Shown in pieces: positions 3,355-18,760 of a stretch of DNA of 27,427 nucleotides. Source of the DNA: a virus. The stretch's first letter is position 1; each line of letters opens with the position of its first letter. The stretch is from IMG/VR virus record IMGVR_UViG_3300029319_000385, positions 1 to 27,427 of that record; one strand, written 5' to 3'. The notes under the pieces are model-generated. The model did no database searches, had not been told where the DNA came from, and worked only from the letters and a program-made list of their open reading frames with translations. A program made the translations under genes and the position numbers.

Positions 3355-3930
3355 ATGCTTTTAATTTTGACTAGCCTGTTAGCTTGTAGTAGTGTAGACA
3401 AACTCAATGAGCAATTAGATTCACAAGAGACTGCAGAACAGACAGTTGATGTTATCGAAAAATGTATACATATAAAAGGACACAAACCATGCGATTTTGA
3501 AACATTTGATGTACATGGTAATATTGTTAACCTACATGATTTAGAAGGCTCTCCGTTAATTCTGGATATATCTGCAGCATGGTGTGGGCCTTGTCGCGCA
3601 GCTGCTCAAGAAGTTCAAGATGTACAGGATGCGTATAGTGAATACAATCTAAAGTATTTAACATTACTTTTTGAAGATACAGGAGGTAATGTACCAAATC
3701 AATCTGATTTAGAAGTTTGGGCTTCTCAAAATGAAATTACCACAGCACCAGTATGGGGTGGGAGTAGAGATTTATTGGTAAATAGCCCCATAGAGACAGA
3801 ACAAGGTTTCTATATGACTTCGTTACCTACTTTTTATTTCATTAACAGCGAAATGAGAATATATAGTATGCAAGTAGGTTTTAATTCTAGCGTAATTGAA
3901 GAAAAAATTCAGGAGATGTTAAATGACTAA
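3355..3930 (+). CDS. Thioredoxin-like (TlpA/ResA type) lipoprotein
   Basis: A 191-residue protein when started at ATG 3355, which has AGAGGTG five bases upstream. The longer reading from 3301 would begin inside the terminator. Residues 1-11 (MLLILTSLLAC) form a short lipoprotein signal with an ideal lipobox LLAC, so Cys11 should be lipidated and the protein anchored on the outer side of the inner membrane or in the outer membrane. Residues 37-191 are a thioredoxin fold with WCGPC at 76-80 and the cis-Pro loop SLPT at 156-159. The probable role is disulfide oxidation or reduction in the periplasm, with cysteine-bearing neighbours as possible substrates. Two extra Cys (37 and 46) sit before the fold. 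The basic residues usual before the signal are absent. The gene overlaps the next by 8 bases. Confidence 0.88.
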   Translation: MLLILTSLLACSSVDKLNEQLDSQETAEQTVDVIEKCIHIKGHKPCDFETFDVHGNIVNLHDLEGSPLILDISAAWCGPCRAAAQEVQDVQDAYSEYNLKYLTLLFEDTGGNVPNQSDLEVWASQNEITTAPVWGGSRDLLVNSPIETEQGFYMTSLPTFYFINSEMRIYSMQVGFNSSVIEEKIQEMLND

Positions 3931-4177
3931 AATAAAATTATATGAAACAGTTTATGGGGAAAGCCCGCCTGAAATTTCTACTGATGAATATGAGATGTCT
4001 ATTATGGATCAAATGGAAAATGCTATGAATGTTGCTATTCAGGATTCTGAGCTTAACGGTTATGACAATATTTATGATTACGTTAAAGAGATGTATCCTC
4101 AATATGAAGACACGCCAGGCGGAATGACTAGAGACGAAAAATTTATTGAAGATATTGCAAAAAATCTGGTTGACTAG
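3923..4177 (+). CDS. Acidic small protein with LYE leader
   Basis: An 84-residue, strongly acidic protein. Its ATG overlaps the end of the lipoprotein gene and has AGGAG upstream. The first 12 residues (MTKIKLYETVYG) align with the starts of the next two proteins: a Lys-containing five-residue start, L6-Y7-E8, then a (T/A)-x-YG stretch. The remainder is helical and rich in Asp, Glu, Tyr and Met, with no enzyme motif. L-x-E followed by a small residue is the known cleavage rule of the T4 prohead protease gp21, so the leader may be a removable capsid-targeting peptide. Alternatively the three genes share a duplicated 5' end. Function is unknown. Confidence 0.7.
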   Translation: MTKIKLYETVYGESPPEISTDEYEMSIMDQMENAMNVAIQDSELNGYDNIYDYVKEMYPQYEDTPGGMTRDEKFIEDIAKNLVD

Positions 4178-4179
4178 TC

Positions 4180-4839
4180 ATGAAAAAGTTAAATTTATAT
4201 GAAGCAACATACGGAAGCTTAGACAATATTAACGAAAGTATTTTATCTGGAGTTACTTTAGCAGCATTATTTACAGGTTGTGCAGGTCAAGATTATAATC
4301 TTACTTCTTTACCAAAAAAAAATAGATCAGGCATTGATATACCAAATTGTGTGAATAATGTTTATTACGAACCTAGATGGGATAATCCAATCTGGAAACA
4401 AGAAAACAATCAAGAAGGTTTAAATAACGCTTTAGGCATGGTACCACTTGAAGAATTTAAAAGTCAATTTGAAAATAGTGAAAAACAAATTCTTGTTAAA
4501 GAAGGCCTTCATGGTTCTCGTGATATTCCCGTTCTTGAAGTCTACTGGGGATATGTTCCCAAGTCATGTCCCTACTTCGGATCAGCTGGTCCTACTAAAG
4601 GAAAAACAGATGAACTAGTTTATGATGACCAATATATTGAAGATATATACAGCGCAGATCATGAAGATAGTTTTAATTACGAGGATAGAGAAAATTTTCT
4701 AGTAACCATTGGATTAAAGTTTCCTATATTCGATTTTGAAGGAGAGTCTTTTGTAGCTGAGCCTATTTATATTTCAAGTGCACCTATACCTAACTCGAGT
4801 GAATGCTCGAAAGCATATGCTGAATGGTATTTCAATTAA
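4180..4839 (+). CDS. Putative lipoprotein with LYE leader, unknown function
   Basis: A 219-residue protein. Its ATG lies two bases after the previous stop, with no clear ribosome binding site, which suggests coupled translation. Residues 1-12 carry the shared leader (L6-Y7-E8, then ATYG). Residues 21-33 (ILSGVTLAALFTG) form a hydrophobic segment ending at Cys34, a fair but imperfect lipobox (L-F-T-G-C; Phe at -3 is uncommon). The mature part contains further Cys residues (in PNCVN, KSCPYF and SECSKA), many aromatic residues and an acidic stretch near 145-165. An exported protein with disulfides is likely, which fits its position next to a thioredoxin-like lipoprotein. A run of nine A at 4314-4322 lies in the gene. 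Confidence 0.65.
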   Translation: MKKLNLYEATYGSLDNINESILSGVTLAALFTGCAGQDYNLTSLPKKNRSGIDIPNCVNNVYYEPRWDNPIWKQENNQEGLNNALGMVPLEEFKSQFENSEKQILVKEGLHGSRDIPVLEVYWGYVPKSCPYFGSAGPTKGKTDELVYDDQYIEDIYSADHEDSFNYEDRENFLVTIGLKFPIFDFEGESFVAEPIYISSAPIPNSSECSKAYAEWYFN

Positions 4840-4854
4840 CCCAAAGGACGAGAA

Positions 4855-5178
4855 ATGATAAAAATAAGTTTGTATGAGGCAACATACGGAAATATTGATG
4901 AGTATGTAGTTCCAATGGGATATAGTTTAGAACGTTGGTTAGAAAAAAAGAAGAAAGAAAAGCTAACTAATAAACAATATGCTGAAGAGACGACGGGCGA
5001 CAAGTGGAAGGTAGTTCATAGTAAAAATAGACCTAAAAGAAAAGGGAAGGGTGGTAGAAAGTTGCCCGCAACTAAACGTGGTAATATCATAAATAAAAGC
5101 GCTAAAAATCTATCATATCAGAAAGCACATAATCAACATGTTGCTGTGAAACTAAGTGAAAATAATTTAGAAGATTAG
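4855..5178 (+). CDS. Basic small protein with LYE leader
   Basis: A 107-residue, Lys/Arg-rich protein with AAAGGA upstream. Its first 12 residues (MIKISLYEATYG) match the two preceding proteins, and the bases encoding the ATYG part are nearly identical to those of the 4180 gene. Residues 30-80 are very basic (KKKKEK, RPKRKGKGGRK). A basic protein with a short N-terminal L-x-E leader recalls the T4 internal proteins, which are carried into the head by a roughly 10-residue targeting peptide that gp21 removes, and are injected with the DNA. A DNA-binding internal protein is therefore a reasonable hypothesis, but no homology is seen. It is the last gene before the neck/tail block. Confidence 0.7.
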   Translation: MIKISLYEATYGNIDEYVVPMGYSLERWLEKKKKEKLTNKQYAEETTGDKWKVVHSKNRPKRKGKGGRKLPATKRGNIINKSAKNLSYQKAHNQHVAVKLSENNLED

Positions 5179-8385: not shown

Positions 8386-11300
8386 ATGGCAGAACAAACA
8401 TTCAAATCTCCCGGATTTTTTGAGAAAGAAATAGATTTAACGCAAAGAACTGCCCAGTTAACCGGAATTCCGGCAGGTGTTGTAGGGACTGCACAGAAGG
8501 GTCCGGCTTTTGTGCCTGTAACTGTAGGATCATTGTCTGACTTTATTAGAAAATTTGGTGATTTAGATTCAGAAAAATTTGGACCTTACGCAGTTAATGA
8601 ATTTTTAAAAAATAGATCTGCGTTAACATATGTTCGTGTACTTGGAGCTGGAGCAAACTCATCATCAACAGATATCGCAACGACAAATGCACAAGGTACA
8701 GTGAAAAATGCCGGATTTATAATTAAAGGTTCTGGTATGAATTCTTTTAGCGGTCCTAACAGTCCCTATACATTAGTAGGTGCAGTTCAATTTATTTCTG
8801 CAAAACACCAGATACATGAAGCGGGGTTAGAGGCAGATTCTTATCCAATTTTTACTGATAATGACTCACTAACAACATCAGCTAGTGAAGTTACTTTAAT
8901 TAGAGGAATGCTGTTTTTAGGCTCTGGATCTAGAGTTCAAATAATGCAAGCTGATGAATTTTATAATGAAAATATTGAATTTCAAGTTGATGAAACATTT
9001 AGTTCACAAATATCTTCGTATGATGGTACTAAAAATGAAGGAACTTTTAAATTGGTAATATCTTCATCAGCAGGTGCAAGATTTAATACGCAAGAAGGTT
9101 TTGATGGCATTAAGATTTATACTGCATCTTTAAATTACGATAGTGACCATTACATTGGAAAAGTATTAAATACTGATCCGGATAATTTTAGAACTGAAAA
9201 CCATTTACTCTATGGAGACTTCCCCATAGAACCTGGTTTGGCACGTGTTAAATACGATGGAAGCAATGACACAGTTTGTATTCTTTCTGGTACGACAACT
9301 TGGTCAGATAACTTAGGTAGATTTGACACACGATATTCAAATGCTAAAACCACTTCTTTTATTTCACAGCCATTTGGTACAAAAGAATACGATCTATTTC
9401 ATTTTGAAACATTAAGTGATGGATCAGTTGCAAATACTCAAGTTAAAGTATCAATAACAGACTTGAAAAGATCAACAAATCCTGTTAGTCAGTTTGGAAC
9501 TTTTACTGTTTTGGTAAGAGATTACTACGATAATGATTTAGCTCCTAAAATATTAGAGCAATTTCCAAACTGTACTTTAGACCCAGGAAGTGAAAACTTT
9601 ATTGCTAAAGTTATAGGTGATTACAAGGTTTTTTATGATTTTGATGCAACGTCAGAAGGTGAACGTAGATTAAAAGTTAGCGGAAAATATCCAAACAAAT
9701 CAGAATATATTAGAATTATTATGAATTCTGCTTTTGATACAGCAGGTAACGTTCCAGAAAATGCATTACCCTTTGGCTTTAGAGGTATTCCAGGGTTGAT
9801 GACTAACGAGGAAGGTACAGATACAAGTACAATGTATAGATTAGCAACAAAAACCGACGTTGCAGCTTTAAAAAGTGGTATCATACCTCCTATTCCCATG
9901 ACAATTAAAGCTACTAGAGGTAAAGTAAAAGAGTCTGGTGCATTTTTTGGTGATGCTGGTAATGCAGAAGTTGCAGATCCTAGAATTTATTGGGGTATTA
10001 AAACAACAACGCTTCCGCTTAGTTCAAGCATAAGCAAAGCTGTTTTAATGACAAATGGTAGTGGTGATCACAATCCATTGATTGATAACTACACAAAAAT
10101 GCTAGGGATTCAAAAGCTTGATGTTTTAACGACAGGTTCAGCTTCTGATACGTTTAATAACAATAAATTTACTTTGGCAAGAGTTGGTCTTTACAATCAC
10201 GGTGTCGATGGTGCAACACCTTCCATTAGTGGCGAAATTACAGGGTCAGCCAACGATCATATGATTAATGCAGCGTATATAAGAAATGCAACTCCTGATG
10301 CAAACACTTATTTTGTAAGTGACGGATCGTTAACACAAAGAATATCTTTTGCATCGCTAATTAAAGAAACTGATGCAAAATTCTTTAATCGATTTACTAG
10401 CTACTTAAAATTTACAAATGTATTTTACGGCGGTTTTGACGGTCTCAACATATTAGATAAGGACTCTAGAAAAATGAATGACCGTTCATCTTCTTCTGAA
10501 ACTGGTGGGAAAGCAGTAAGTGGTGTAAGAAGTCGACTTAACTTACATTCTTCATATACGCCAGGTTTAGGATTAGAAAACAATGTTGTTGCATCTTACA
10601 GAGCGGGCATTAAAATATTAACCGATGAGATGTCATCAAGAATCAATATTTTAGCTGTACCTGGAATTAGAGATAGTTTTGTTACAAATTACGCTTCTGA
10701 TCGTGTTCGAGACTTCAGTAAGGCAATCTACTTAATGGATTTGGAGAATTACTCTGATGTTGATGGAACTGCAACTAGACTATTTGATGACGATACCGAT
10801 CCACCTAGTGTAAGACAAACTTCAGAAAAGTTTGATGCGCGTGGTTTAGACAATAATTATGTTGCAACATATTTTCCAAATGTCACAATTAATGATCCTA
10901 ATAATGACATGTTAGTTAGAGTTCCTTCTTCTGTTGCAGCATTAGGAGCACTAGGGTACAATGATTCAGTAGCTTATCCTTGGTTTGCCCCTGCCGGATT
11001 TAATAGAGGTGCGTTGGAGTTTGTTGTCAATACACATTCTAGATTAACAGCAGGTGATAGAGATACTTTGTATGAAGCAAGAATTAATCCTATTGCAAAC
11101 TTTCCTCAAGGCGGATATGTTATATTCGGTCAAAAAACATTACAATTTGCAAAAACGGCATTAGATAGGGTGAATGTTAGAAGAATGTTGCTGGAGGTTA
11201 AAAGATTAGTAAGTAAAGTTGCTAACAATATTGTTTTTGAACAAAATACACAATCAACAAGAAATAGGTTTATATCTCAAGTTACGCCCCTCTTGTCAAC

Positions 11301-11478
11301 AATACAAACGCAGCAAGGTATCGATTCTTTTAGAGTTGTAATGGATTCATCAAACAATACAGCTGAAGATGTCGAACAAAACAGGCTTAATGGTAGAATT
11401 GTTCTCGTTCCTACACGAGCCGTTGAATTTATTGCGATAGATTTTATTATCACAAATTCGGGTGTAAGTTTTGAGTAA
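8386..11478 (+). CDS. 18: Tail sheath protein, first paralog (very long)
   Basis: A 1030-residue tail sheath protein with TAGGAG upstream. The N-terminus has the family start (MAEQTFKSPGFFEKEIDL), PAGVVGTA at 29-36 and GPAFVPVTV at 39-47, then a domain ending in YVRVLGAG. The C-terminal domain carries PWFAPAGF, LDRVNVRRMLLEVKR (about 925-940) and the final beta part (GRIVLVPTRAVEFIAIDFIITNSG) that links neighbouring subunits in contractile sheaths. Sheath subunits polymerise around the tube and contract to drive it into the cell. T4 gp18 has 659 residues; here about 370 extra residues lie in the middle and probably form surface domains. It is followed 30 bases later by a second, homologous gene. 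Confidence 0.95.
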   Translation: MAEQTFKSPGFFEKEIDLTQRTAQLTGIPAGVVGTAQKGPAFVPVTVGSLSDFIRKFGDLDSEKFGPYAVNEFLKNRSALTYVRVLGAGANSSSTDIATTNAQGTVKNAGFIIKGSGMNSFSGPNSPYTLVGAVQFISAKHQIHEAGLEADSYPIFTDNDSLTTSASEVTLIRGMLFLGSGSRVQIMQADEFYNENIEFQVDETFSSQISSYDGTKNEGTFKLVISSSAGARFNTQEGFDGIKIYTASLNYDSDHYIGKVLNTDPDNFRTENHLLYGDFPIEPGLARVKYDGSNDTVCILSGTTTWSDNLGRFDTRYSNAKTTSFISQPFGTKEYDLFHFETLSDGSVANTQVKVSITDLKRSTNPVSQFGTFTVLVRDYYDNDLAPKILEQFPNCTLDPGSENFIAKVIGDYKVFYDFDATSEGERRLKVSGKYPNKSEYIRIIMNSAFDTAGNVPENALPFGFRGIPGLMTNEEGTDTSTMYRLATKTDVAALKSGIIPPIPMTIKATRGKVKESGAFFGDAGNAEVADPRIYWGIKTTTLPLSSSISKAVLMTNGSGDHNPLIDNYTKMLGIQKLDVLTTGSASDTFNNNKFTLARVGLYNHGVDGATPSISGEITGSANDHMINAAYIRNATPDANTYFVSDGSLTQRISFASLIKETDAKFFNRFTSYLKFTNVFYGGFDGLNILDKDSRKMNDRSSSSETGGKAVSGVRSRLNLHSSYTPGLGLENNVVASYRAGIKILTDEMSSRINILAVPGIRDSFVTNYASDRVRDFSKAIYLMDLENYSDVDGTATRLFDDDTDPPSVRQTSEKFDARGLDNNYVATYFPNVTINDPNNDMLVRVPSSVAALGALGYNDSVAYPWFAPAGFNRGALEFVVNTHSRLTAGDRDTLYEARINPIANFPQGGYVIFGQKTLQFAKTALDRVNVRRMLLEVKRLVSKVANNIVFEQNTQSTRNRFISQVTPLLSTIQTQQGIDSFRVVMDSSNNTAEDVEQNRLNGRIVLVPTRAVEFIAIDFIITNSGVSFE

Positions 11479-11508: not shown

Positions 11509-14500
11509 ATGGCAGAAAGAATATTTAAAAGTGCAGGCGTTAGTACGCGAGAAATTGATTTATCTGCACCTGATCAAAGCACACCGTCAGGAGTTCCAGC
11601 CGGTATTATAGGTACTGCTGATGAAGGTCCAGCTTTTGTCCCGGTTACGGTTTCAAATTTCACATCTTTTCAAAATGTTTTTGGGTCGATGGATGGAACA
11701 AAATTTGGTCCAATTGCTGTTAATGAGTGGCTAAGAAATGCACAATCTGCAACTTTTATAAGGGTTTTAGGAGCTGGTGATACCAAGAAAAGAAGTTCAG
11801 CGGGTGTTGTTACAAATGCAGGTTTTGTTGTAGGCGGACAGCAAGTACAGTCTAATGGAGAATTAGGCAATAACACTTACGCAAATCATGCAGCAGGCGC
11901 AGCAACCTTAGGAAGAACATATTTATTAGGAACATATATGTCAGAATCTGCTGGAAGTACAATATTTTCAGAAGCAGGAATTCAGACAGCAAGAAAACAA
12001 GCTGTTGCTGCCTTTCACATGGTGGCAGGTATTACAGGCGCAATTATTATTGATGACGGAGCAGGTACACAAAAATCTTATCATTTTACCACAGGTACAC
12101 AAGGTGCTGCACACGCGGCTCAATACAACTACGCTGCTGGTGTTATTGTTAAATCTGATGGGATATCAGCCATCGAGGTAGCAAAAAACTTTGCAGGAGC
12201 ATTGGTCGCTGCTAATGGTCACGTAGGTACTGTGTCAGGTTCAAATAACAATGCTGCGGGAGGCGGAACTGTTATTGCACACGTCACTCAATCTTACTTT
12301 GGTGAGGTAGGAAATACAACAATTAACTTTGTTGCTCCAACAACTCAAGGACACAGTACTAACGGATCATCTGGCGATGCTGTTGCATCTGGGATTAGAA
12401 CAACTGGAATTGTAGCTGATACACAATTTAGATCTGGTTCTGGTGGTGCAGTTCCTATATTACGTGGTGTATTACTAGCGCCTAGTGGGGTCATACTTCA
12501 CTTAAGCGGTGCTAGATCAAGAAACGGTAATACAGTTGTCGCTTCAGACACAGCCGCCGCTGGAAACAGCCCAGCGCCTGTTGGACAAAAGGGTGGCGTT
12601 ACAGGATCCCTAGAAATAGCAACAGAAAACTTTGTAATGTTACTAAATGGTCATAAAGGGAGCTCTGAATATCCTAATGAAATTACTGCTTCTTTTGACT
12701 TATCGAATGAACAGCAATATTTTAGAAATGTTTTCAATACAGATCCAACTAAAATAGAAGAAGCAGGTCATCTTCTTTACGCTAGCTATGATATACATCC
12801 TAATTATGCAGTTGCTACAGGATCTGAAATGGTTCAGCACGGTCATAGTTCAGATCCTCAATTGACTGGTAATTCAAAACTTGAAGATATTGCTTTCATA
12901 CTGACATCGTCAGCCGATAGAAATGCAGGAAGTTCAACAGTCCCTGACTATGAAGGCTTTGAAGATAGATTTAAGCATGCTGAATCACCTTTCGTCATAT
13001 CGCAAAAGTATGGTTCAGAAAATAAAAATCTTTTTAAAGTTGTAGCATTATCGGCAGGTGCAAAAGCTAACACTAGATATAAGATTAGCATAGATAATTT
13101 AACTAGAATAAATGCAACAACTTATCCTTCTTTTGATTTAGAAGTTAGAGACTTTTTTGATTCTGATGATGATAAAGTTGTTTTAGAATCATTTAGAAAC
13201 TTAAATCTAGATCCTGCTTCTAATAGATTTATTGGTCGCGTCATTGGAGATTTAAACGTCTATTATGATTTTGACAAGTCACCCTTAGATCAAAAAATAA
13301 ATGTAAAAGGCGATCATCCTGTTCTTTCAAACTATATTAGAATTGAGATGTCAAGCGATCTAAAAGCAGGTAACATACCAGTTGACGCATTGCCAATGGG
13401 TTTTAGAGGCCCAATGTGCATTCAGACGTCAGGTTCGATATTACAAATTCCAGGATCAGATAATATTTTTGACGTTGATGAGCGACAAAAGCACAGAAAC
13501 GTAAAACAACCACCTATACCTTATAGGAAAACAATTGCACTTGGTACAGGTCAAAGCAAAAGAGTTAATTCTAGATTGAATTGGGGTATGCAATTCAATA
13601 GAAAGACATCGACAACAGAGCCTAATAAGCAAACTCTATTTGATAATTCTTTTGAAAGTTTTGTTAGATACTTACCTAATCACAGAACTGACATATTGAA
13701 TGTGAATGTGGCATCTGATACATTTAATAACAACTTGTTTAGTTTAGAAAATATTTCTGTTAGAACAGGTTCGGGTGGAACTGATGGTAGCAACTTAAAG
13801 GCAGACCCAGAATATTGGTTAAGTGCCTCATACGTTAGAAATGGTTCAATAACAGCAAATGCTGCTCTTAAAACAAGGGCTTTAAAGCCTTCTGACTTTG
13901 AAGTTCCTGCAAACAGACGTTATTCTGGATTTAATTTCTTTTTACAGAATGGTTTTGATGGATTGAATATATTCAATGCTGATAAAGCAGCTATGACAAA
14001 TAACGCAGCAAAAAGAGAAATGGGAGAATCTGGGCAGGGTGAGAAAAATGGTTCCACAGTTGCTGGATTTAGAAAAGCAATTGATATCATGGGATCAAAA
14101 GCTGATGTTGACATTAAGTTGTTAGCAATCCCAGGAATGAGAGAGCCCACAATAACAGATTACGCAATAAGCGCAGTCGAATCTAGATTTGATGCTTTAT
14201 ACCTTATGGATATTGAAGAAAGAAACAATTATAATGTAACGATAACCGGATCAAGTGATGCTGTTAATGTAACAAACACAGTTAATTTGTTCAAGACAAG
14301 AGGTTTAGACAGTTCTTTTGCAGCGGCATATTTTCCTGATGTTACAAAAACTGTTTCAACATCGACAACAGGCAAAAATGCATCTTCTGGTAATAATCTA
14401 ATAAAAGTTCCACCATCAGTTGTTGCACTAGGAGCATTTAGTTTTAATGACGCTGTTGCACACCCCTGGTTTGCTCCTGCTGGATTTACAAGAGGGGCGT

Positions 14501-14964
14501 TAAACGCTGTTGAATCTGCTGATGTTAGACTAAGCAGGAATGATTTAGACTCCCTATACGACGCAGATATTAATCCGCTAACTGCATTTCCAGGAACGGG
14601 TGTTGTGATTTGGGGACAAAAGACATTATTGGAAGGAGCATCAGCTTTAGATAGAGTCAATGTTAGAAGATTACTTATTGATATAAGAAGATCAGTAAGG
14701 AATATCGCGAACACTTTACTTTTTGAACCAAATCGTCAAGAAACATTAGATCGATTTAATTCTTTGGTAAATCCAATCCTACAAAGAGTTCAAGAAAAAG
14801 GTGGAGTAGATAGATACAAGGTCGTTATAGACACAACTACGACTACTCAGGCAGATGTTGAAAATAATACAATACGTGGCAAGATCTTCTTGCAGCCTAC
14901 AAGATCAGTTGAATTTGTTGCACTTGATTTTGTTGTAACAAATGCTGGTGCTGAAGGTTTATAA
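11509..14964 (+). CDS. 18: Tail sheath protein, second paralog (very long)
   Basis: A 1151-residue sheath protein, paralogous to the one before it along most of its length. Shared parts include PAGIIGTA (30-37), GPAFVPVTV (40-48), VRVLGAG, NTDP, ASDTFNNN, FDGLNIF, HPWFAPAGF, LDRVNVRRLLIDIRR (about 1046-1060) and the C-terminal PTRSVEFVALDFVVTNAG. Residues from about 125 to 305 form an Ala/Gly-rich insert absent from the first copy. It reads like the beta/alpha module found in many phage surface proteins (AIEVAKNFAGALVAANG, then TVIAHVTQSYFG). A GGAG ribosome binding site precedes the ATG. The two copies may assemble as mixed or alternating rings, or serve as variants; the sequence does not decide this. 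Only one tube gene follows. Confidence 0.94.
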   Translation: MAERIFKSAGVSTREIDLSAPDQSTPSGVPAGIIGTADEGPAFVPVTVSNFTSFQNVFGSMDGTKFGPIAVNEWLRNAQSATFIRVLGAGDTKKRSSAGVVTNAGFVVGGQQVQSNGELGNNTYANHAAGAATLGRTYLLGTYMSESAGSTIFSEAGIQTARKQAVAAFHMVAGITGAIIIDDGAGTQKSYHFTTGTQGAAHAAQYNYAAGVIVKSDGISAIEVAKNFAGALVAANGHVGTVSGSNNNAAGGGTVIAHVTQSYFGEVGNTTINFVAPTTQGHSTNGSSGDAVASGIRTTGIVADTQFRSGSGGAVPILRGVLLAPSGVILHLSGARSRNGNTVVASDTAAAGNSPAPVGQKGGVTGSLEIATENFVMLLNGHKGSSEYPNEITASFDLSNEQQYFRNVFNTDPTKIEEAGHLLYASYDIHPNYAVATGSEMVQHGHSSDPQLTGNSKLEDIAFILTSSADRNAGSSTVPDYEGFEDRFKHAESPFVISQKYGSENKNLFKVVALSAGAKANTRYKISIDNLTRINATTYPSFDLEVRDFFDSDDDKVVLESFRNLNLDPASNRFIGRVIGDLNVYYDFDKSPLDQKINVKGDHPVLSNYIRIEMSSDLKAGNIPVDALPMGFRGPMCIQTSGSILQIPGSDNIFDVDERQKHRNVKQPPIPYRKTIALGTGQSKRVNSRLNWGMQFNRKTSTTEPNKQTLFDNSFESFVRYLPNHRTDILNVNVASDTFNNNLFSLENISVRTGSGGTDGSNLKADPEYWLSASYVRNGSITANAALKTRALKPSDFEVPANRRYSGFNFFLQNGFDGLNIFNADKAAMTNNAAKREMGESGQGEKNGSTVAGFRKAIDIMGSKADVDIKLLAIPGMREPTITDYAISAVESRFDALYLMDIEERNNYNVTITGSSDAVNVTNTVNLFKTRGLDSSFAAAYFPDVTKTVSTSTTGKNASSGNNLIKVPPSVVALGAFSFNDAVAHPWFAPAGFTRGALNAVESADVRLSRNDLDSLYDADINPLTAFPGTGVVIWGQKTLLEGASALDRVNVRRLLIDIRRSVRNIANTLLFEPNRQETLDRFNSLVNPILQRVQEKGGVDRYKVVIDTTTTTQADVENNTIRGKIFLQPTRSVEFVALDFVVTNAGAEGL

Positions 14965-15565: not shown

Positions 15566-15611
15566 TTTTACTATTTAGACTCAAAATGTTAGTATTTTCA
15601 TGGGAGGAAAA

Positions 15612-16409
15612 GTGTCAAATAATAAGATAGGTATAAAAAGTGATATATTTAATTGGGAAGTTCCAATAGAAACAGTACCTTTACCTTCTAAAGGAAAAAT
15701 ATATTCAAAAGATTCTTGGTTTCACATGAAAGAAACCGTTGATATTAAATCAATGACTGCTAATGAAGAAGATATTCTTGCTTCTCAAGCTTATATCAAA
15801 AAAGGTGTTGTTGTTGATGAGCTTATTAAATCATGCGTAATGGATCGAAATGCTGATCCTAAAGACTTGCTCGTTGGCGATAAAAATGCTTTAGCTATGG
15901 CAATTAGAATTACGGGTTACGGCTCAAGCTATGATGCATCAATAGTATGTCAGCATTGTCGACATAAAAATCAGAAAGTTTTTAATTTGACTGAATTAGC
16001 AATTAAACCTTTGCAAGCTGAACCTATCGAACCAGGACTTAATTGCTTTGAATTTAATTTACCTGTGACTAAGAAGAAAGTTTATTTTAAATTGCAAACA
16101 GGTAGGGACGAAGAGGTTTTGCAAAAAACAATTGAAAGTAAAAGAAATATTCTAGGTGAAATGTCGATTGGCCCTATTACTTCAAATTTAGAATCAATGA
16201 TTGTTTCAATTGATGGTATAGAAGAAGCTGGTAAAATAAAAGAATTTATTTCTATGATGCCTGCTTACGATTCTAGATCTTTAAGAAGTTATATGACTAA
16301 AATTCAACCAGGGATGGACATGAATGTCACAATAAAATGTGACAATTGCGGCGAGAAGTCAGAGGCGTTTTTACCGATAAACGCAAATTTTTTTTGGCCA
16401 GCAGTGTAA
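15612..16409 (+). CDS. gp26-family (T4_baseplate) protein, likely tail assembly chaperone or hub factor
   Basis: A 265-residue protein from GTG 15612, chosen because GGGAGG (15602-15607) sits just upstream. An in-frame ATG at 15600 overlaps that ribosome binding site and would add four residues. The pattern VPLPSKGK, SMTANEEDILAS, KKGVVVDELIKSCV, GDKNALAMAIRITGYG is typical of the T4 gp26 family (Pfam T4_baseplate). Two CxxC pairs, Cys113/116 (CQHC) and Cys243/246 (CDNC), probably bind zinc. The protein lies between the tube and the tape measure, where tail assembly chaperones are expected. Eight T's at 16388-16395 near its 3' end allow a -1 shift into the next frame, giving a predicted 345-residue fusion. 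In T4, gp26 is required for hub assembly. Confidence 0.85.
   Translation: MSNNKIGIKSDIFNWEVPIETVPLPSKGKIYSKDSWFHMKETVDIKSMTANEEDILASQAYIKKGVVVDELIKSCVMDRNADPKDLLVGDKNALAMAIRITGYGSSYDASIVCQHCRHKNQKVFNLTELAIKPLQAEPIEPGLNCFEFNLPVTKKKVYFKLQTGRDEEVLQKTIESKRNILGEMSIGPITSNLESMIVSIDGIEEAGKIKEFISMMPAYDSRSLRSYMTKIQPGMDMNVTIKCDNCGEKSEAFLPINANFFWPAV
16388..16394 (+). promoter_or_regulatory. Candidate -1 ribosomal frameshift site, T TTT TTT
   Basis: In the reading frame of the gp26-family gene the bases divide as AAT TTT TTT TGG, giving a perfect X XXY YYZ heptamer with all T. It lies 12 bases before the zero-frame stop (16407-16409). After a -1 slip, translation continues as LASSVNIREN in the overlapping frame to the stop at 16646-16648. 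No obvious downstream pseudoknot was seen by eye. Confidence 0.6.
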
Positions 16410-16648
16410 ATATAAGAGAAAATTTTTTAGAAACATCGTTTATACTGCAAATGCATTTAGGGATGTCATACCAAGACATAAGAAATTTACCGCTAAGTTA
16501 TAGAAGATGGTATGTTGATAGACTATTAAAACACTTCAAGAAGAAAAATAAAACCACAAAAAAACACCAAGAAAACACATCTCAAAATAATTCAAAGTCT
16601 CCGGAAGACTTAAAAAAGATAGAGAAAATATTTAAAAAATTCTCTTAG
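16394..16648 (+). CDS. Downstream frame of frameshifted chaperone pair (short gp51-like region)
   Basis: An 84-residue frame, entered by a -1 shift at 16388-16394. The coding signal (ENFLETSFILQMHLGMSYQDI, NLPLSYRRWYVDRLLKHF) begins directly after the shift site. The pattern of a hydrophobic helix followed by 'LPLSYRRW..DRL.KHF' recalls small proteins next to gp26 in T4-like phages (place of gp51) and the C-terminal part of tail assembly chaperones. No credible start exists: only TTG codons at 16346 and 16394, and an ATG at 16451 that would cut off the conserved helix, none with a ribosome binding site. The tail (residues 45-84) is basic and polar. If not frameshifted, it could be made from a weak TTG start. 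It ends 30 bases before the tape measure gene. Confidence 0.6.
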   Translation: MASSVNIRENFLETSFILQMHLGMSYQDIRNLPLSYRRWYVDRLLKHFKKKNKTTKKHQENTSQNNSKSPEDLKKIEKIFKKFS

Positions 16649-16678: not shown

Positions 16679-18760
16679 ATGTCTATAACACAACCAGAAA
16701 TGGAAGCCCTTTTAAATAAATTTATGGGTGCTGGGTCTCCAATAACAGCTGCTATGGGAGGAGGAGGAACTACTACTGCACCTGCAGGATCTCCACCTGT
16801 TGCTGGTAGCATTGTTGATTTAGACAAGCTAGTAAGCCCTGAACAAACAACTTTCTTACAGAATTTGAAAGGAATGACTTCTGATGCTATGGGTCTTCTT
16901 GATTCTTTAAAAGAAGGTGCAAAAGCAGTAGACGACATGATGTTGACTTATACTGAGCCTCTTCGTGTTGCTTCTTTACAGATACAAGAATCATTTGGTG
17001 GGTTTAGAAAAGCAAATCAAGAAATGAGTATAGGAATTAGCCAAGATCTTCGTGATTCATACGACTCATTTGCAGCAAACATCACATCAACAACAGACGA
17101 ACTTGTAGCAATGGGTAAAGAAAAGTATGTTGTTGAAATTGACGGTGCTGATGTAAATTTACTAGGAGAAGCATTTCAAGACGCCGATGTATTTCGTGAG
17201 AAGTTTTTTGGAATGATTGAGAATTATGGCGACACAATAGGGCCTGCATTAGCTGCAGGACTTAAAGATAGCATGGAAGACATTGCACTATTCCAAGAAA
17301 ATTTTGGTCTATCAACACAACAGTTAGGAGACTTTATAGGTATTGAAGTTGCAAGAACAGGCGAAGCAACAACAACAATGATGGATGATTTAAAGAAATT
17401 TTCTTACGGTATGTCTGCACAAACTGGAATAAGCGCAAAGCTTATAGCAAAAGATACGGTTGAAATTGTAAGTAACGTTAAACAATTTGGAAATGTTACT
17501 GTTGAAGAAGCAGCCAGGATGTCAACTGCTTTAAAACAACTCGGGGTTGAATATTCACAATTATCAGGTATGGTCGGCGCTTTCCAAGGTTTCGATACAG
17601 CCGCACAAAAAGTTGGAAATTTATCAGCAGTATTTGGAATACATTTAGATGCAGTTGAAATGATGCACCTTGCTAACACTGATCAAGAAGCAATGATGTT
17701 TAAGCTTAGAGATGCTTTCGATGCATCAGGACAGTCTTTAGACGATATGAATATTGCACAAAAGAATTTGTTAGCTGAACAGGCAGGATTTACAGATGTC
17801 AATCAAATGGAAATGTTTTTTAGCGGTCAAGTTGATAGTATGGAAGAACTACAAGCAATGTCTGAAGAGGCAGCAGATGAAGCTACCGCTGCTGATGCTG
17901 TTGAAGCTTTCAACAAAGACTTAGCAACTTTAGCGTTGCAAGGCGTAGAAGCAGCTGACAAAATTGACAAGGCAAAAAACGATCTAGTATTTTCTTTAAA
18001 TAGTTTAGCTCCCGAGGTTATGGACTTTCGATCAAACCTTATGACAGGAATAGGTTTTACAGCAGACGAAGTTAAATCACTAGCTACAGGCGCTGTTCAG
18101 GAAGTTGATAAGGTTAAAGACGCTTTAGTAGACGCTTATAGAGGAGAAGGCTCCCTTGAAGATGCTATGTCGACTGCTGGTGAAGGTTTTATAACTAGCA
18201 TTTCAAGAGTACCTGGATCACTCGGAACTATTTTAGATAAGACGCTTGATGTGTATGAAGCATCTGACTTTAAGTCAAGAAGCCCCAGTGTTGTTGGCGA
18301 AAATATGACAGATGGTTTTGTTCATGCCTTGGAAGACGGTCGTATTGCTTCTGCTTTTGATAATATTTTAATTATGGCAGAAGAAGCATCAAGTGCTTCA
18401 TCAGCAATGATGGCAGAATCAGGATTAGCAGAGTACACTGAGTTGACCGAGCGTGCGGGTAATGAAGCAACTGCTACTGTTGCAGAGGTTTTAGCACAGC
18501 ACATAGAAAAGATAGAAGAGGTTGAGCAATTAGTAGATGCACCTGATAAGATTGTAGATATTCTTTCAAACGTAGGGGAAATGAAAACTATTAATGATCA
18601 GTTAATACAAAGTTTAAAGGAGAATGCAGAAAAACCTCTTAAAATATCATATGAGTCAAAAGGAGCTGATGATATTGGTAGTGTGATATTTGGATTACTA
18701 AAAGATCATATCAGCATTAACGGCGGCCAAATGGTCATGTCATACCCAGATAATCAATAG
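16679..18760 (+). CDS. Tail tape measure protein
   Basis: A 693-residue, largely helical protein rich in Ala, Glu, Asp and Met, with GAGGT 11 bases before its ATG. T4 gp29, the tape measure in the equivalent place, has 590 residues. Residues 90-300 are long helices. The core block (LIAKDTVEIVSN, VTVEEAARMSTALKQLGVEY, FQGFDTAAQKVGNLSAVFG) is the pattern I recognise from tape measure proteins of marine contractile phages. SRSPSVVGENMTDGF (about 533-547) resembles the SPS...G motif near the C-terminus of many tape measures. A Gly/Pro/Thr-rich linker lies at about 25-42. At about 0.15 nm per residue the tail would be roughly 100 nm. No strong membrane segment stands out, which is unusual for some families but not for the gp29 type. 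Confidence 0.82.
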   Translation: MSITQPEMEALLNKFMGAGSPITAAMGGGGTTTAPAGSPPVAGSIVDLDKLVSPEQTTFLQNLKGMTSDAMGLLDSLKEGAKAVDDMMLTYTEPLRVASLQIQESFGGFRKANQEMSIGISQDLRDSYDSFAANITSTTDELVAMGKEKYVVEIDGADVNLLGEAFQDADVFREKFFGMIENYGDTIGPALAAGLKDSMEDIALFQENFGLSTQQLGDFIGIEVARTGEATTTMMDDLKKFSYGMSAQTGISAKLIAKDTVEIVSNVKQFGNVTVEEAARMSTALKQLGVEYSQLSGMVGAFQGFDTAAQKVGNLSAVFGIHLDAVEMMHLANTDQEAMMFKLRDAFDASGQSLDDMNIAQKNLLAEQAGFTDVNQMEMFFSGQVDSMEELQAMSEEAADEATAADAVEAFNKDLATLALQGVEAADKIDKAKNDLVFSLNSLAPEVMDFRSNLMTGIGFTADEVKSLATGAVQEVDKVKDALVDAYRGEGSLEDAMSTAGEGFITSISRVPGSLGTILDKTLDVYEASDFKSRSPSVVGENMTDGFVHALEDGRIASAFDNILIMAEEASSASSAMMAESGLAEYTELTERAGNEATATVAEVLAQHIEKIEEVEQLVDAPDKIVDILSNVGEMKTINDQLIQSLKENAEKPLKISYESKGADDIGSVIFGLLKDHISINGGQMVMSYPDNQ

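Follow-up and report, generated by a model that had tools for sequence, protein, structure and literature searches.

The locus considered here lies in a viral DNA stretch of 27,427 nucleotides (IMG/VR record IMGVR_UViG_3300029319_000385, positions 1 to 27,427; hereafter the window), in which a gp26-type gene runs into a tract of T shortly before its stop codon while a second frame, one base back, stays open for a further 84 codons. Is this second frame joined to the first by programmed -1 frameshifting, as originally predicted, and, if so, how does the arrangement relate to the chaperone pairs of other tailed phages?

Layout of the locus

The relevant features, in window positions, are these:

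15602..15607, + strand: Shine-Dalgarno (SD)-like GGGAGG, 4 nt before GTG 15612 (sequence)
15612..16409, + strand: gp26-type ORF, short form (TAC-N); PF12322 4e-16, phrog_150 5.6e-20, AlphaFold pLDDT 92.8
16361..16367, + strand: SD-like AGAGGCG, some 20-28 nt ahead of the slip site (sequence)
16388..16394, + strand: slippery heptamer T TTT TTT (sequence, relatives)
16394..16648, + strand: -1 frame extension (gp51-like or TAC-C domain, 84 aa, helical); homologs in 150+ loci
16401..16448, + strand: predicted stem-loop, outer 11-bp stem from 6 nt past the heptamer (z -2.46 and -1.65; moderate)
16646..16648, + strand: stop TAG of the extension (sequence)
16679..18760, + strand: gene in the tape-measure position, 693 aa; place conserved in relatives

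Besides the family matches listed, the zero-frame protein aligns with T4 gp26 (hhalign E 1.6e-6), and by sequence homology it is a gp26 homolog of the T4 gp26/gp51 family; T4 gp26 itself ends in KEFFELL, with a Phe-Phe near the terminus as at the slip site of the window. The ORF probably begins at GTG 15612 (alternative, ATG 15600) because GGGAGG lies just upstream, and it ends GCA AAT TTT TTT TGG CCA GCA GTG TAA, the stop being 16407-16409. Its T-run is eight bases long (16388-16395), and the in-phase X XXY YYZ heptamer was found where it had been predicted, 12 nt ahead of the stop. The predicted products are a short form of 265 aa and a fusion of 261 + 84 = 345 aa, the size originally expected.

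Evidence that the downstream frame is coding

The sequence itself shows the slip site, a coding -1 frame that wants a start, and the conservation of that frame. The peptide has recognizable relatives at the same place (e.g., 47% identity over 79 aa), and in almost all relatives the domain sits after gp26 in an overlapping frame. Past the gp26 stop, the differences among 30 pairs of relatives fall on positions 1/2/3 of the downstream-frame codons in the proportion 522/300/1160, the third-position bias of a translated frame. At the slip site itself TTT makes up 273 of 279 Phe codons, vs. 993 of 1397 in the rest of the gene (150 relatives; p 7e-29).

The frame is also poor in starts. In the window only TTG 16346 and TTG 16394, the latter inside the slip region, precede the conserved core, no SD is found near TTG 16394, and the first ATG (16451) falls within a conserved helix, so that the frame has no credible start of its own, as had been claimed. 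The alignment of relatives that had been proposed as a check gave the same picture, with the T-run site conserved and no ATG, GTG or TTG before the domain in 69 of 150 distinct +1 loci (described below); nor is there a start codon in the -1 frame of phiAS5 and of several -1 contigs (L104, L107). The extension is often omitted from annotation or entered as a separate hypothetical gene, and a conserved domain of this kind is easily missed in protein databases.

Direction of the shift in related phages

Across 150 distinct loci of relatives, the F-F-W-P slip site is again followed by this domain, but there in the +1 frame, so that the frame used by the window differs from that of most of its relatives, a point against the proposed -1 shift. 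The common +1 site, TTT TTT TGG CCN, is nearly invariant, with TTT CTT TGG, TTC TTT TGG and rarer forms as variants. Re-pairing after a +1 shift is possible at all 150 sites and after a -2 shift at 123; a -2 shift as the general mechanism in the relatives was ruled out by the 27 sites unable to re-pair in this way. The +1 loci include Microcystis phage Mel-JY01, Flavobacterium phage immuto and phage contigs binned into bacterial MAGs, and the layout extends to the more distant phages SP-15, LIS04 and GXN1. As a side observation on such binning, one 305-kb contig of a Methylococcaceae MAG (NHDW01000006.1; L127, L128) carries the same phage segment near both its ends and is likely a phage assembly with terminal redundancy that was placed in a bacterial bin.

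A -1 layout is found in the window and in other phages: RAS14, XacN1, the PA5oct group, Rhizobium IC12, Aeromonas phiAS5, L104 and most of L109-L123, all with NNT TTT TTY, and L105-L107 with A AAT TTT (L105 and L106 also have an ATG in frame). A first tree nested the window within the +1 set. A second search recovered closer relatives, two of them +1 (L160, 62% identity, and L163) and two -1 (L161 and L162); the latter are independent contigs from other samples, 54-56% identical to the window gp26, and carry the slip site AAT TTT TTC TGG with its canonical T TTT TTC heptamer. The window and L160-L163 form a five-member clade (support 100/99), in which the window, L161 and L162 are joined by a single change to -1 in 41% of bootstrap trees. 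The -1 direction originally predicted is supported for the window and these two relatives, together with the other -1 phages, while most relatives shift +1.

The codon before the slip site differs between the two directions. It ends in T at 14 of 14 -1 sites, including every T TTT TTY heptamer, vs. 5 of 100 +1 sites (p 4e-14, indicative only, as the sequences are related), and the +1 sites strongly avoid such a codon: it was present at 10 of 123 uninterrupted +1 sites, vs. 44.6 expected, and at 3 of 27 interrupted ones, vs. 11.3 expected. The idea that T is avoided solely as protection against a T8 run was not supported, since interrupted sites avoid it too. It seems probable that the direction of frameshifting has been reversed at one orthologous site, +1 in most members of the marine clade and -1 in the window, L161 and L162, that the pre-slip codon marks the direction, and that the U8 of the window may allow both shifts, with only the -1 shift giving a functional extension.

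Two relatives carry the domain with no frameshift, a further point against the proposed shift. L010 gives it an ATG of its own. In L003 (5733-5957), alone among the relatives, it continues in the zero frame immediately past the gp26 stop codon (TAA TTG...), an arrangement that suggests either stop read-through or re-initiation.

Alternative explanations

An extra base could instead be supplied before translation, by RNA polymerase adding one U on the T8 and the fusion then being made from the edited mRNA. Polymerase slippage on T-runs of this kind is established, and eight T in a row would permit it in the window. We consider it improbable here: the run is interrupted in 27 of 150 orthologous +1 sites (TTT CTT, TTC TTT, TTT CTA), the sites of other phages have only T6 to T7 or A AAT TTT, and the codon phase is maintained at every site, a requirement of slipping ribosomes but not of a slipping polymerase.

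Still less likely is a separate downstream gene, started at TTG 16394, TTG 16346 or ATG 16451 through re-initiation or translational coupling. Starts do occur in some relatives (the ATG of L010, as TAATG; the TTG after the stop in L003; an ATG in cyanophage Sf-FS3), and many loci have an SD-like element upstream of the slip site. Against this, the 69 start-less orthologs would have nothing from which to begin, TTG 16394 has no SD near it, a start at ATG 16451 would truncate the first, conserved helix, and the TTT bias at the slip site would be left unexplained.

A sequencing or assembly error, the true virus being +1 like most relatives or having one plain fused ORF, is the least credible: the window overlap is indeed one base off those of L001 and L002, with one base fewer giving the usual +1 spacer length, and no near-identical contigs were found that would confirm the base count, but no other large ORF of the window is broken, and a lone error is unlikely given the -1 layout of L161 and L162, which come from other samples and belong to the same well-supported clade.

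A programmed -1 frameshift yielding the 345-aa fusion accounts for the locus by far the best, and is highly probable; that the slip itself is ribosomal we infer. The original proposal of such a shift joining a gp26-family protein to a start-less domain is supported, and comparison with relatives strongly favors the proposed mechanism.

Proposed mechanism and RNA signals

On this explanation most ribosomes would reach the TAA at 16409 and make the 265-aa gp26-type protein, and a minority, presumably, would move back by one base at U UUU UUU to make the 345-aa fusion with its 84-aa helical extension, the tRNA-Phe in both the P and the A site being able to re-pair fully. For the +1 shift of the wider clade the simplest route would be a forward step of the P-site tRNA-Phe from UUU onto the UUY that overlaps it. 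The window lineage would have turned to -1 by a one-base change in the overlap combined with a codon ending in T ahead of the site.

Phages with a -1 layout frequently have a stem-loop shortly past the heptamer (XacN1, z -5.3; PA5oct group, -3.2; IC12, -3.1). The window hairpin gave z -2.5 for a stretch of set length (60 nt) and -1.65 by the folding tool. L161 and L162 have no clear downstream hairpin (z -0.4, -0.9), which counts against the proposed -1 shift. Downstream structure as a general +1 signal was dropped, since the mean over +1 relatives matches that of a control stretch (z -0.65 vs. -0.57); unlike this mean, L160 and L163 do show downstream structure.

A separate observation concerns the upstream side: 84 +1 relatives (among L001-L095) have a conserved, purine-rich SD-like element, GAGGTG or GGAGGT, 18-30 nt ahead of the slip site. 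Synonymous codon choice in the +1 set is under strong selection there, with GAG in 23 of 23 cases at -21, 40 of 49 at -27 and 16 of 17 at -30, against a background of 38%; the window counterpart, at 16361-16367, occupies a position under synonymous selection for GAG/GTG in the +1 relatives. The spacing matches the textbook arrangement of neither dnaX (-1) nor prfB (+1).

Identity of the extension

The extension had been called gp51-like. It does align with the C-terminus of T4 gp51 (residues 222-246), but the scores are weak (hhalign E 0.48; phrog_634 E 0.06), and the sequence hints at no closer than a faint kinship. DUF6760 matched in 7 of 43 relatives (best E 6e-4). The predicted structure is helical (pLDDT 84.7), with no significant match in the PDB; the extension of a relative, searched directly in phage records, gave no match, and a short-peptide search with the extension matched only L102 and L103, both of which lack gp26.

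A search of the phylum of one host MAG found no DUF6760 other than that of the phage itself. Six loci in genomes from the phylum of an actinomycete MAG (L148, L149, L150, L151, L152, L156) have a DUF6760 gene immediately behind an ORF with weak likeness to gp26. The junction GGG GAA TCG TGA is identical in all six and could hold a -1 slip site (G GGG GAA) together with an overlapping GTGA start; from this junction, contractile injection systems may have a comparable chaperone pair.

Proposed chaperone function and the neighboring gene

When the gp26 model was compared with 350,542 PDB chains, the top matches were the HK97 tail assembly chaperone entries 2ob9 and 3fgx. The first ranked highest in Foldseek at a non-significant E of 0.87 (VIA-align Z 5.4 over 82 residues), and the second reached Z 5.8, the next PDB entry having 2.9; these Z scores, too, are below significance. 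That the HK97 chaperone ranks first agrees with a tail assembly chaperone reading, though it is not significant alone. An earlier account (PMC3004832) counts T4 gp26 and gp51 among the hub assembly chaperones and has gp51 absent from the final particle. By analogy, the gp26-type gene and its extension fit the lambda G/GT model of paired tail assembly chaperones, in which the short form would coat the tape measure protein and the extension would recruit the tail tube subunit.

The place just before a tape measure gene, part of the original prediction, is suggested by position and by annotation in distant relatives: the gene after gp26 is annotated as tape measure in Flavobacterium immuto and LIS04. 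The window gene itself (16679..18760) has no family match; its iterated profile reaches L004 4755-7755 (5.8e-18) and does not reach the tape measure proteins of immuto and LIS04. We call it a putative tape measure gene from its position and that annotation.

Other reading frames of the window

Three neighboring ORFs at 3923, 4180 and 4855 (window 3923-5178) share an N-terminal (I/L)(K/N/S)LYE(T/A)xYG and otherwise differ; the motif is possibly a common targeting or processing signal. Two large tandem ORFs (8386-11478 and 11509-14964) have like N-termini, MAE(Q/R)xFKS(P/A)G, and the first matches sheath families, so that the two may be a tail sheath paralog pair. A 347-aa ORF at 26177-27220 matches DNA_pol_A (E 2e-9) in its C-terminal half only and is shorter than usual family A polymerases.

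Comparison with known systems

In E. coli prfB (RF2), the +1 shift at CUU U occurs by re-pairing in the P site, as we propose for the TTT CTT TGG of some relatives. This likeness concerns the +1 relatives and not the window; prfB is autoregulatory, with its SD 3 nt upstream.

The ratio of two assembly proteins is governed by frameshifting in tail chaperone genes, and a phage group is usually assumed to keep one direction. Close relatives that shift in opposite directions at the same site would offer matched natural sequences on what makes ribosomes slip forward or back at U-runs. Neither the +1 majority nor a change of direction within a clade was found described in the literature examined, where the 2022 Virology work cited below figures only through later citations.

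The chaperone genes of Vandenendeviridae and Andersonviridae resemble the window in having a poly-T -1 site (GTTTTT) near the end of TAC-N and an open -1 frame; they belong to other phage families, and -1 is reported for them throughout (PMC12846349). For poly-T -1 signals in the TAC-N genes of T4-like phages the same study cites the 2022 Virology work.

Lambda gpG/gpGT has the same plan, a short and a long form made by a -1 shift before the tape measure gene, and a 2016 review states that neither product is in the virion and that, with the exception of T4, long-tailed phages have conserved G/GT frameshifting (PMC5009743). The window differs in its slip site, T TTT TTT rather than that of lambda, and in its larger gp26 with two CxxC pairs. 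The suggestion that gp26/gp51 is the counterpart of G/GT agrees with the layout and the probable frameshift, but the window gp26 has no significant match to gpG by sequence or fold.

A further likeness is to the T4-like phages themselves, for which the original prediction knew of no established case. That statement is outdated: Vladimirov, Gautam & Davidson reportedly identified tail assembly chaperone genes of T4-like phages, with frameshifting in some groups (Virology 2022; 566:9-15), and in another study (PMC10885494) some T4-like phages pair a short gene with a long, fused one. The TAC-N/TAC-NC (gp26/gp51) of several T4-like groups reportedly likewise combine a short gp26-family protein with a C-terminal domain gained by poly-T frameshifting. 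The 2022 authors reportedly name genes 26 and 51 and find frameshifting conserved in several T4-like groups. T4 differs in having 26 and 51 as separate, divergent genes where the window has one gene with a shifted extension, and the T4-like chaperones differ from the marine clade of the window, which is mostly +1. Because T4-like TAC frameshifting was reported in the 2022 work, the window is a new member of an already reported kind of T4-like chaperone.
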